This document shows, piece after piece, positions 30,532-42,361 of a stretch of DNA of 64,000 nt. The translations under genes were made by a program, and so were the position numbers. Position 1 is the first letter of the stretch. Every line of letters begins with the position of its first letter. Source of the stretch: Sulfurimonas indica (lineage in GTDB: Bacteria; Campylobacterota; Campylobacteria; Campylobacterales; Sulfurimonadaceae); NCBI RefSeq assembly GCF_009192995.1, contig NZ_SDID01000006.1, positions 1 to 64,000 of the forward strand, read 5' to 3'. Under the pieces are notes generated by a model. That model saw only the letters and a list, made by a program, of their open reading frames with translations. It did not search any database and had not been told where the DNA came from.

Positions 30532-30595
30532 TTAAGGGCACCTCTAAAAACTCTAATCATCCTCAGAAGGCTAGAGTTTTTAGAGGTGCCCTTAA
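30532..30595. repeat. short MITE-like palindromic element at the 3' end of recD2
   Basis: Arms of 24 bases (30532-30555 and 30572-30595) are perfect inverted copies. The left 32 bases (30535-30566) match the left end of the larger element at 42052 at 31 of 32 positions. It looks like a minimal, end-to-end derivative of that element. It lies between two minus-strand genes and may also terminate recD2 transcription. The recD2 stop codon (30592-30594) lies in the right arm. TA flanks both ends if the element is taken as starting AGGGCACC. Confidence 0.85.
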
Positions 30596-33140: not shown

Positions 33141-33166
33141 ATCTTAAATAATTAATTGGAAATTTG

Positions 33167-34147
33167 ATGGGAAAAGAATCAACTCAAACAAAAAATGGAA
33201 AAGCATTTGAATATGCCATTTTAAAAGAATTTCAAGAAAAACTACAACGAGGTACAGCAGTAGAAGTTATAGAAAATAAAGCATATATAACAGCAAAAAA
33301 ACATTTTGACTCATTTGGTACACTTATACAAAGTGAATTCTCTCTTTACGCTAGTTTTGCAGTAAATTTTTTAATTGATATTGAACCTAGACTATCAAAT
33401 AGCTTTGATGATAATGACATTTTACAACTAGAAATATTAACAGATGATAAAGGTAAAGATGGAGATGTAAGAGATATTGTTGCTATTCGTTTATTACAAA
33501 AGTGGGAAATAGGAGTATCTGCGAAAAACAATCATAAAGCTATAAAACATTCAAGACTTTCAAACAAAATTGATTTTGGAAAAAAGTGGCTTGGAATACC
33601 TGTATCTAATATTTATTTTGATGAAGTAAAACCTATCTTTGATTCTCTTGATAAAATGAGAAAAGAAAGTAATAAAACAAAAACTTGGGAATCCTTAGGA
33701 GATTATCACACATCCATATATCACCCAGTATTAGAAGCATTTAAAAAAGAATTATTCAAAATATATAACACTAATCCAGCAAAAGTTGCTTCTACTTTAG
33801 TAGAATACCTAATAGGAAATAAAGATTTTTATAAAGTTATCAAAAGTAAACATAATATAGAAATTCAAGCATATAACTTACATGGAACATTAAATCTGCC
33901 ATTTAAAGAAATTATTCCTAAGTTTAAAATACCTCAAGTAAATTTACCCACTAAAATAATTAGTATTAACTATAAAAAAGACACTAAAACAACGCTTATC
34001 ATAAAACTAAATAATGACTGGGAACTTTCATTTAGAATACATAATGCAAGTTCAAGAGTTGAACCATCTTTAAAGTTTGATATTAACTTATTAAAAGCGC
34101 CAAAAACTTTATTTACAAATAAACTTTCAATTAAGGAAAGTAAATGA
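33167..34147 (+). CDS. HaeIII-family type II restriction endonuclease
   Basis: A 326-residue protein similar to R.HaeIII, from memory of that family: TQTKNGKAFEYAILKEF near the start, GDVRDIVAIR, KWEIGVSAKNNHKAIKHSRL and DFGKKWLGIPVSNIYF. The E-X-G-X-S-X-K run is a plausible nuclease active site. HaeIII cuts GGCC; the strong match of the neighbouring methyltransferase supports the same site. TTG at 33164 extends the frame by one codon, but the ATG at 33167 is the likely start. It overlaps the methyltransferase by 4 bases. Base composition is clearly lower in GC than the flanking genes, indicating transfer. Confidence 0.88.
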   Translation: MGKESTQTKNGKAFEYAILKEFQEKLQRGTAVEVIENKAYITAKKHFDSFGTLIQSEFSLYASFAVNFLIDIEPRLSNSFDDNDILQLEILTDDKGKDGDVRDIVAIRLLQKWEIGVSAKNNHKAIKHSRLSNKIDFGKKWLGIPVSNIYFDEVKPIFDSLDKMRKESNKTKTWESLGDYHTSIYHPVLEAFKKELFKIYNTNPAKVASTLVEYLIGNKDFYKVIKSKHNIEIQAYNLHGTLNLPFKEIIPKFKIPQVNLPTKIISINYKKDTKTTLIIKLNNDWELSFRIHNASSRVEPSLKFDINLLKAPKTLFTNKLSIKESK

Positions 34148-35244
34148 ATATAATATCATTATTTTCTGGAGCTGGTGGATTAGATTTAGGTTTTGAAAAA
34201 GCAGGTTTTAAAACTATTTGGGCAAATGAATACGACAAAGAGATTTGGGAAACATTTGAAAAAAATTTTCCAAATACTAAACTAGATAGAAGAAGTATTG
34301 TTAACATTCCATCAAGTGATATTCCTGATGCTATTGGTTTAATAGGTGGACCACCTTGCCAAAGCTGGAGCGAAGCAGGTAAGCTTAAAGGAATAAATGA
34401 TCATAGAGGACAACTATTTTTTGAATTTATTAGGGTTTTAAGAGATACAAGACCTCTGTTCTTCTTGGCTGAAAATGTTTCTGGTATGTTAGCAAGTCGC
34501 CATAGTGAAGCACTAGAAAATATTAAAAATCATTTTATTGATAGTGGATACAACTTATCATTCAAGCTTTTAAATGCTCATGACTATAAAGTACCACAAG
34601 ATAGAAAAAGAGTATTTTTTATTGGATTTAGAAAAGATTTAAATATCACCTTTGAATTCCCAAAACCATTTTCAAAAAAAAGATTCTTAAAAGATGTAAT
34701 TTTTGATTTAAAAGATAATGTTTTACCTGCGAAAGATAAAAATTATACAAATGGTGATGACTGTAAGATTGAAAATCATGAATTTATGACTGGTGGTTTT
34801 TCATCAATGTTTATGTCAAGAAATAGAGTCAGAAGTTGGGATGAACCATCATTTACAATACAAGCAGGTGGAAGACATGCTCCACTTCATCCGCAAGCTC
34901 CTAAAATGCAATTTGTGGAGCAAAATAAAAGAATATTTGTTCCTCATAGTGAACATTTATATAGAAGACTTAGCATTAGAGAATGTGCTAGAATTCAAAC
35001 ATTCCCAGATAATCATAAATTTTATTATAAAAATTTGAGTGCAGGTTATAAAATGGTAGGAAATGCTGTACCACCATCTTTAGCATATTATTTGGCAAAG
35101 GAAATACAAAAACAACTATTAAGCATATACCCTAACAAATCCTTGGAAATAATAGGTGAACCTATCTCTCAAAATTCAAATATTAATGACATATTATATA
35201 TTCCTGATATATCAAAAAGTACTAAACAAACGGTTCACTTATAA
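34144..35244 (+). CDS. DNA (cytosine-5-)-methyltransferase, HaeIII type
   Basis: A 366-residue C5-methyltransferase with motif I SLFSGAGGLDLGFEKAGF, motif IV GGPPCQSWSEAGKL (catalytic Cys72), motif VI FFLAENVSGM, motif VIII PQDRKRVFFIGFR, motif IX RRLSIRECARIQTFPDN and motif X GYKMVGNAVPPSLAYYL. From memory of M.HaeIII the similarity runs through the target-recognition domain (MSRNRVRSWDEPSFTIQAGG), so GGCC with modification of the inner cytosine is the likely target. About 35 extra residues follow the normal C-terminus. It protects host DNA from the upstream nuclease, and the 4-base overlap couples the two. Low GC as in its partner. Confidence 0.94.
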   Translation: MNIISLFSGAGGLDLGFEKAGFKTIWANEYDKEIWETFEKNFPNTKLDRRSIVNIPSSDIPDAIGLIGGPPCQSWSEAGKLKGINDHRGQLFFEFIRVLRDTRPLFFLAENVSGMLASRHSEALENIKNHFIDSGYNLSFKLLNAHDYKVPQDRKRVFFIGFRKDLNITFEFPKPFSKKRFLKDVIFDLKDNVLPAKDKNYTNGDDCKIENHEFMTGGFSSMFMSRNRVRSWDEPSFTIQAGGRHAPLHPQAPKMQFVEQNKRIFVPHSEHLYRRLSIRECARIQTFPDNHKFYYKNLSAGYKMVGNAVPPSLAYYLAKEIQKQLLSIYPNKSLEIIGEPISQNSNINDILYIPDISKSTKQTVHL

Positions 35245-42040: not shown

Positions 42041-42051
42041 CTATACCCTTT

Positions 42052-42319
42052 AGGGCACCTCTAAAAACTCTAATAATCCTCAGCATAAGAGAAAAATTCA
42101 TAATCAAGGCAGTCTTTTGAAAACCTAGCCGTAGCTAAGTTAAAAAAGATTAACGCAGAGTATGGACTTTTCTCTTTTGCCCGAAGGGAGGGATAAAACA
42201 GAGCAAACTTGCAAAGAATTTTTCATCATCATAGCTTTAGCTATGACTCAAAAAAAGTTCTTCACAAGTTTGCTCTGTTTTATCCCTCTGAGGACTGTTA
42301 GAATTTTTAGAGGTGCCCT
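42052..42319. mobile_element. 268-bp non-autonomous MITE-like element
   Basis: Terminal inverted repeats of 32 bases (42052-42083 and 42288-42319, both reading AGGGCACCTCTAAAAA inward) match at 29 positions. A second, internal pair of perfect 24-base arms (42188-42211 and 42265-42288) encloses a small ATAGCT-tt-AGCTAT palindrome. There is no transposase frame. The ends match the element at 30532. TT lies next to both ends, so the target duplication is short or unclear. It fills most of the gene-free stretch between kdsA and the DMT transporter (42041-42361). The parent insertion sequence is not in the window. Confidence 0.8.
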
Positions 42320-42361
42320 TTAAAAAAATGTAAGAGATTATAGCCAAATTATTGTAAAAAT

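Follow-up and report, generated by a model that had tools for sequence, protein, structure and literature searches.

A mobile element upstream of kdsA in Sulfurimonas indica carries a two-hairpin core found between different ends and in several bacterial phyla

We looked at a short repeat upstream of kdsA in a 64,000-nucleotide stretch of the Sulfurimonas indica genome (contig NZ_SDID01000006.1, hereafter the window). This repeat, at positions 42052-42319, is a MITE, a non-autonomous DNA transposon. Its interior, rather than being a degenerated transposase, is a conserved two-hairpin core that is also found in MITEs with other terminal inverted repeats (TIRs) and in other phyla. Altogether, mobile elements from four or more bacterial phyla contain the hairpin core, with quite different ends around it.

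The element is 268 bp long and is given here on the plus strand of the window, which is the one where hairpin P1 folds. The features used below are the following.

42049-42052, no strand: left copy of the target duplication TTTA, overlapping the first base of the TIR as initially annotated
42052-42083, plus strand: left arm of the TIR stem P0, whose outer ~19 bp match the end of an IS5-family IS
42083-42180, plus strand: hairpin P1, the cross-phylum core module, matched by covariance model R1 at 42092-42171 with 73.6 bits
42102-42110, plus strand: 5' side of the P1 internal loop, AATCAAGGC, with CAAGGC nearly invariant
42151-42160, plus strand: 3' side of the P1 internal loop, TAACGCAGAG, with AACG nearly invariant
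42180-42188, plus strand: small hairpin CCCGAAGGG at the junction of P0, P1 and P2, from the predicted fold
42188-42288, minus strand: hairpin P2, for which the wobble bias in relatives points to a minus-strand fold
42288-42319, minus strand: right arm of the TIR stem P0, 32 nt
42319-42322, no strand: right copy of the target duplication TTTA, from the sequence and the empty-site comparison
42337-42342, minus strand: probable -10 box TATAAT of kdsA, in the context TGGCTATAAT that is kept in the empty-site relative; the element now intervenes
30535-30592, plus strand: 58-bp remnant of the same family with both ends, no core and TTAA flanks

The initial annotation of this DNA had described 32-bp TIRs with 29 of 32 identical positions, and these were recovered at 42052-42083 and 42288-42319 (91% complementary). 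The perfect 24-bp inner inverted pair it reported is part of longer arms at 42188-42223 and 42253-42288 (36 nt, 92%), the central palindrome between these arms is CATAGCTTTAGCTATG, and, in keeping with the reported lack of a reading frame, no ORF of at least 80 aa was found in 42052-42319. RNA folding of the two strands gave -132.7 kcal/mol (z -16.9) and -144.2 kcal/mol (z -17.0), well beyond shuffled controls. In the predicted fold, the TIR stem P0 closes two long hairpins, P1 and P2, with the tiny hairpin lying between them. P1 (arms 42083-42105 and 42158-42180) is a third hairpin, absent from that annotation, and proved to be the most informative part; it consists of a stem, an internal loop around CAAGGC/AACG, and a second stem. 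The end sequence of the element was matched four times in the window and never in 100 shuffles. A second site with the same ends does exist, as had been proposed, but it lies at 30535-30592 and not at 30532.

The search of the genome and its relatives for these ends yielded further copies. In S. indica itself, two other complete 268-bp copies are present (C50:70406-70673 and C23:29933-30200, 86-88% identity), giving three full-length copies of this family, named family a. A TIR-only palindrome is found on contig C51 and the genome holds two TIR-only remnants overall; those at window positions 30535-30592 (58 bp) and at L009:1484-1521 (38 bp) belong to the same family. One TIR-only remnant ends where a gene for a RecD-like helicase has its stop codon, and the other lies just 5' of an ORF for a NosL-like lipoprotein. 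The RecD-like gene is adjoined in the window by a pair of genes at 33164-35244 encoding a HaeIII-type restriction endonuclease (PF09556) and a C5 cytosine methylase (PF00145). Similar copies were detected in 20 of the 60 relatives searched, many of them measuring 265-269 bp, and plasmids gave no match to the window element.

The relative closest by kdsA (G020, 94% protein identity) has no element at this gene. Its sequence there reads ...GGCTATAATCTTTTACAATTTTTTAAAAGGTTATGGATG, against ...GGCTATAATCTCTTACATTTTTTTAAA, the element and TAAAGGGTATAGATG in S. indica, which corresponds to a 4-bp duplication TAAA/TTTA; the empty site (L338) contains a single copy of TTTA. A 4-bp flanking repeat is kept in 7 of the 14 family-a copies that were scored. 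An autonomous element with the same ends was found as well, namely a 1272-bp IS in genome G044 (L050:1501-2772) with a 343-aa transposase ORF. Its product matches NF033581 (IS5 family) with 264 bits for a cut-off of 140 and contains the domains PF05598 and PF01609. Further relatives of this parent, intact or decayed, are present in G043, G016 and G020, and an NF033581-type IS sharing the ends of the element occurs in other Campylobacterales. Judging from these shared ends, the MITE would be mobilised by an IS5-family transposase. A profile search of the S. indica genome for the transposase domains DDE_Tnp_1 and DUF772 (PF01609, PF05598) gave no match, and for this reason the copies there look orphaned; the element is probably stranded in its own genome. 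Altogether, the mobile, MITE-like nature first proposed for this repeat agrees with the additional copies, with the IS having the same ends and with the empty site and its TTTA duplication, and the opposite picture, a locus conserved in all relatives and no copies elsewhere, is not what we found.

The element is inserted between the -10 box and the start codon of kdsA, a gene that is essential in most Gram-negative bacteria. Its left end falls within the presumed leader, at 11 bp from the start codon, and since the element lies between the conserved TATAAT and the kdsA ribosome-binding site, kdsA transcripts must cross it. From the window copy it is therefore clear that the host tolerates transcription across the element ahead of an essential gene. 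In other relatives (L340, L351 and L352) a different small insert occupies the same spot upstream of kdsA, with an inverted repeat around a ribosome-binding site and an ORF of ~25 aa (MKKFHLKLTFIVWRLKVNFELKRI and variants); it may belong to another repeat family or encode a leader peptide.

The position in the presumed leader is what could suggest that the window copy was adopted as a terminator or a regulatory RNA of kdsA, as the initial annotation had it. We regard this as very improbable. A terminator role was not supported, as no intrinsic terminator was found in the element (neither a terminator-like site nor a T-tract) and kdsA transcription has to pass through it. Moreover, relatives lack the element at kdsA, P1 faces away from the gene, and the orientation of the family to neighbouring genes is random (31 ++, 31 --, 29 -+ and 25 +-). 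Of the idea of an RNA structure upstream of kdsA, what remains is a strand-specific fold that is a property of the element itself, whereas control of kdsA is contradicted by the random gene orientation. The same randomness ruled out a riboswitch or any gene-specific cis-regulator of the neighbours. Since, in addition, 11 of 153 core copies lie within ORFs, the core is not an ordinary cis-regulator.

We then considered what surrounds the core. Many similarity matches in relatives cover only the middle of the element, and such copies sit in different inverted repeats. In the S. indica genome, the covariance model returned eight matches with E < 0.001 plus weaker ones (E ~0.02) that proved to be real elements. 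These core copies belong to five unrelated TIR families, AGGGCACCTCTAAAAAC, TAGACTTCTTG, TTAAGAGGAATCCCC, AAGTACCTATCC and TTAGTCAAGTAGAAGCC. For family b, the corresponding IS is a 918-bp, two-ORF, IS5-like element in genome G055 with the TIR TAGACATCTTGCAAAACTCA. Flanking duplications differ by family; they are 4 bp long in half of the copies of family a and TA in family b and in Oscillibacter, where the TA may equally belong to the TIR. Yet another TIR family, GAGACCTTTGCATAACTC, encloses the same core at L174 and L176. The parent ISs examined do not contain P1, and no autonomous element containing P1 was found when TIRs were searched over 4.5 kb on each side of ~120 loci. Two size classes recur, one of 150-167 bp (TIR and one hairpin) and one of 262-275 bp (TIR, P1 and P2).

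GTDB species genomes were scanned with the loop strings only (AATCAAGGC, a gap, TAACGCAGAG), which returned at least 120 stretches. In 104 of the 120 matches listed, the immediate flanks of the loop, on which the pattern sets no condition, pair at 6 or more of 8 positions; in a comparable scan of viral contigs the flanks paired in 1 of 31 scored matches, an Oscillibacter-type copy. Among the matches listed, those judged real include Campylobacterota, Gammaproteobacteria (Thiodiazotropha, Shewanella, Colwellia, Ferrimonas, Thiotrichaceae and Hydrogenovibrio), Bacteroidota (Saprospiraceae and Flammeovirga), Bacillota (Oscillibacter, Eubacterium and Clostridiales) and one Lentisphaeria bin (a MAG). 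Within Campylobacterota, the core is found in 18 of 200 genomes and 11 of 47 genera. The core is multicopy, with matches to model R1 counted in Oscillibacter sp. 1-3 (92), Colwellia demingiae (57), Ferrimonas aestuarii (50), Thiodiazotropha (38), Shewanella metallivivens (37), a Saprospiraceae bin (25) and Flammeovirga (19). A viral origin was discarded, the pattern matches in viral contigs being chance ones save for one Oscillibacter prophage-like contig. Single matches in Chloroflexi, Woesearchaeota, Alkalihalobacterium and Pontibacillus, with unpaired flanks, were likewise considered as chance. In Oscillibacter sp. 1-3 (G331, 4.5 Mb), ~105 ends per strand were counted for a MITE family of ~164 bp (TTAGGCCTTGTTTGAAAA ends), some copies of which are clustered. 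In S. metallivivens, the P1 motif is present between tRNA-Ala(TGC) and tRNA-Ile(GAT), as in a 16S-23S rRNA spacer (L158:5329-5388 and L147).

Covariation was measured on 45 copies with less than 70% stem identity, seven others with fewer than 5 of 8 outer pairs having been left out as probable chance matches. In this set 88.4% of the stem cells are paired, against 47.9% after shuffling, and double changes are present in 16 of the 17 pairs. With no correction for shared ancestry, both sides changed in 320 cells, against 112 when shuffled, and the covariation score was 1.007, against 0.241 when shuffled and at most 0.30 in slid controls. The inner stem, on which no pairing filter acted, pairs in 86% of cells. 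In pattern-fetched copies the letters of the loop are fixed by the selection itself; in 43 distinct copies, mostly fetched by similarity or by the model, CAAGGC on the 5' side and AACG on the 3' side are nearly invariant and the outer loop letters vary. The loop begins with AATCAA, which resembles the IHF consensus. An IHF site was rejected, as it leaves the strand-specific pairing unexplained, and is also disfavoured by the taxonomic spread, since some of the phyla carrying the core are not known to have IHF.

A G:U pair becomes an A:C mismatch when the complementary strand is read, so that unequal counts of the two reveal the strand that folds. For P1, we counted 72 GU and 13 AC (p = 5e-11, uncorrected for shared ancestry); the bias had this direction in 38 copies and the opposite one in none. 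Among 22 complete, non-redundant elements, GU/AC counts, equally uncorrected, were 17/12 for P0, 34/12 for P1 and 23/63 for P2, so that P2 folds on the strand opposite to P1. Each of the two hairpins thus folds on the strand that leads inward from its nearer end, the left one for P1 and the right one for P2, and the TIR stem P0 has no strand preference, as expected of a duplex DNA signal. Each end of a full-size element therefore presents its own folded single-strand module. This two-ended arrangement is not universal, as both hairpins are on the same strand in one element (L210) and the 150-167-bp class has a single hairpin. At L321, L323 and L039 the P1 model matches P2 itself, on the strand opposite to P1, and gammaproteobacterial P2 hairpins have the loop letters of P1, inverted. 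P2 appears to be a diverged P1, clearly so in these elements, though not clearly in the window's own P2.

These strand biases bear on the possibility that the element is a selfish MITE with a functionless palindromic core, the covariation of which would come from templated copying between hairpin arms (quasi-palindrome correction). Long near-perfect inverted repeats are indeed prone to such correction, and the P0 stem also changes on both sides, with no strand bias. Such a process predicts unbiased strands for P1 and P2, yet opposite biases are observed; it would also eliminate internal loops, yet these are retained, unpaired, in different phyla, and one core within unrelated TIR families is not expected from decay. 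We find this origin improbable.

A serious alternative, even if we hold it to be rather unlikely, is that the hairpins work as single-stranded DNA folds, extruded for instance on the lagging strand or in the course of transposition, and are bound by a replication, repair or transposition protein, as are attC or REP hairpins. Each end would then show its hairpin on the strand that a DDE transposase leaves untransferred. The mirror arrangement of P1 and P2 relative to the ends is consistent with this, as are the random gene orientation and the total length of the large class, which stays at ~262-275 bp despite different stems. Besides, G:T is better tolerated than A:C in folded single-stranded DNA too, and the wobble bias is compatible with it. 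However, known IS5-type transposition uses duplex ends, the parent ISs were seen without P1, no HUH enzyme is tied to the copies, and the frequent, conserved U:G pairs (in 16 and 11 of the 45 copies at two positions) are more natural for RNA.

The explanation that we favour, by a modest preference, is a probably stranded IS5-type MITE whose core has a second role in cis, most likely as RNA. Because one fold persists while the ends are exchanged, the core would help the element itself. Transposases would act on the TIR duplex, and the core would serve the element in cis in another way, independently of which IS provides the transposase; this would allow ends to be exchanged while the core persists. 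If the active form is RNA, a transcript entering from either flank would first make a correctly folded P1 or P2, and elements of 150-167 bp would carry one such hairpin. The internal loop CAAGGC/AACG may be recognised by a putative widespread factor or RNA partner, and this recognition could render the insertion tolerable or favour retention of the element, for instance by allowing transcription or the mRNA past it.

Bacterial MITEs are usually regarded as transient leftovers of a single insertion sequence. The core described here has outlasted its ends, is spread over several phyla, gives up to 92 model matches per genome and presents a strand-chosen fold at each end, which implies that the interior of a MITE can be the selected part. 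This suggests a folded RNA or DNA module, previously undescribed, that such elements need. The defined loop motif and the covariance model can be used to fish for a binding partner, and a general question becomes testable, namely what gene-less transposons need beyond a transposase. Tentatively, P1 and P2 could represent a new class of structured RNA (or single-stranded DNA) modules that unrelated IS-dependent MITEs of different phyla have in common, and that a putative widespread protein or RNP, exploited by these elements, would recognise; ends would swap between transposases and the module would define the lineage.

Rfam 15 gave no gathering-level match in 13 loci and nothing relevant in 8 more, and with loose thresholds the window element matched only generic microRNA-like hairpins, far below the cut-offs. 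Among the results listed from the open-access literature, no paper on bacterial repeats contained the loop or end sequences on either strand, although an earlier description with a local name is possible, and no element of this kind was found in the open-access MITE papers searched. Among hairpin systems, integron attC sites (RYYYAAC / GTTRRRY) were discarded since the sides of the loop lack complementarity to each other and TCTAAC has no GTTRRRY partner opposite it. Inverted pairs are frequent in BIMEs. REP/BIME sequences with RAYT are alike in being palindromes with conserved unpaired letters (PMC3733652). In REP/BIME a GTAG/CGTC tag stands by a 20-40 bp palindrome, whereas the copies described here are 150-300 bp long, have the TIRs of DDE-type ISs and a different conserved loop, CAAGGC/AACG, and show no GTAG tag in the consensus; we therefore rejected this assignment.

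HEARO, also an orphan transposon-linked motif at first, turned out to be the omega RNA, a guide. Together with RAGATH-18/reRNA, an orphan transposon-linked RNA motif that was later explained as a guide working with IS607 TnpB (PMC11061315), it resembles our core as a conserved structured motif beside mobile elements in many bacteria. Unlike these, the copies here come with no adjacent nuclease gene, recognised variable guide segment or Rfam match. The small mobile repeats Correia/NEMIS, RUP, Bcr1 and ERIC (named in PMC3733652) are, by description only, alike in size range, hairpin folding and insertion near genes; some are known to be transcribed and to affect mRNA, and each comes from a narrow host range. 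As a mobile element, the repeat is an IS5-type MITE, a known kind. It shares with described IS5-derived MITEs a short, non-coding sequence, TIRs in common with an IS, a target duplication, a stable predicted RNA fold and a mostly intergenic position (PMC10969869). Usual MITEs are remnants that belong to one IS and one clade, whereas the element described here has a core common to unrelated TIRs and to several phyla and, unlike them, conserved loops and covarying stems.
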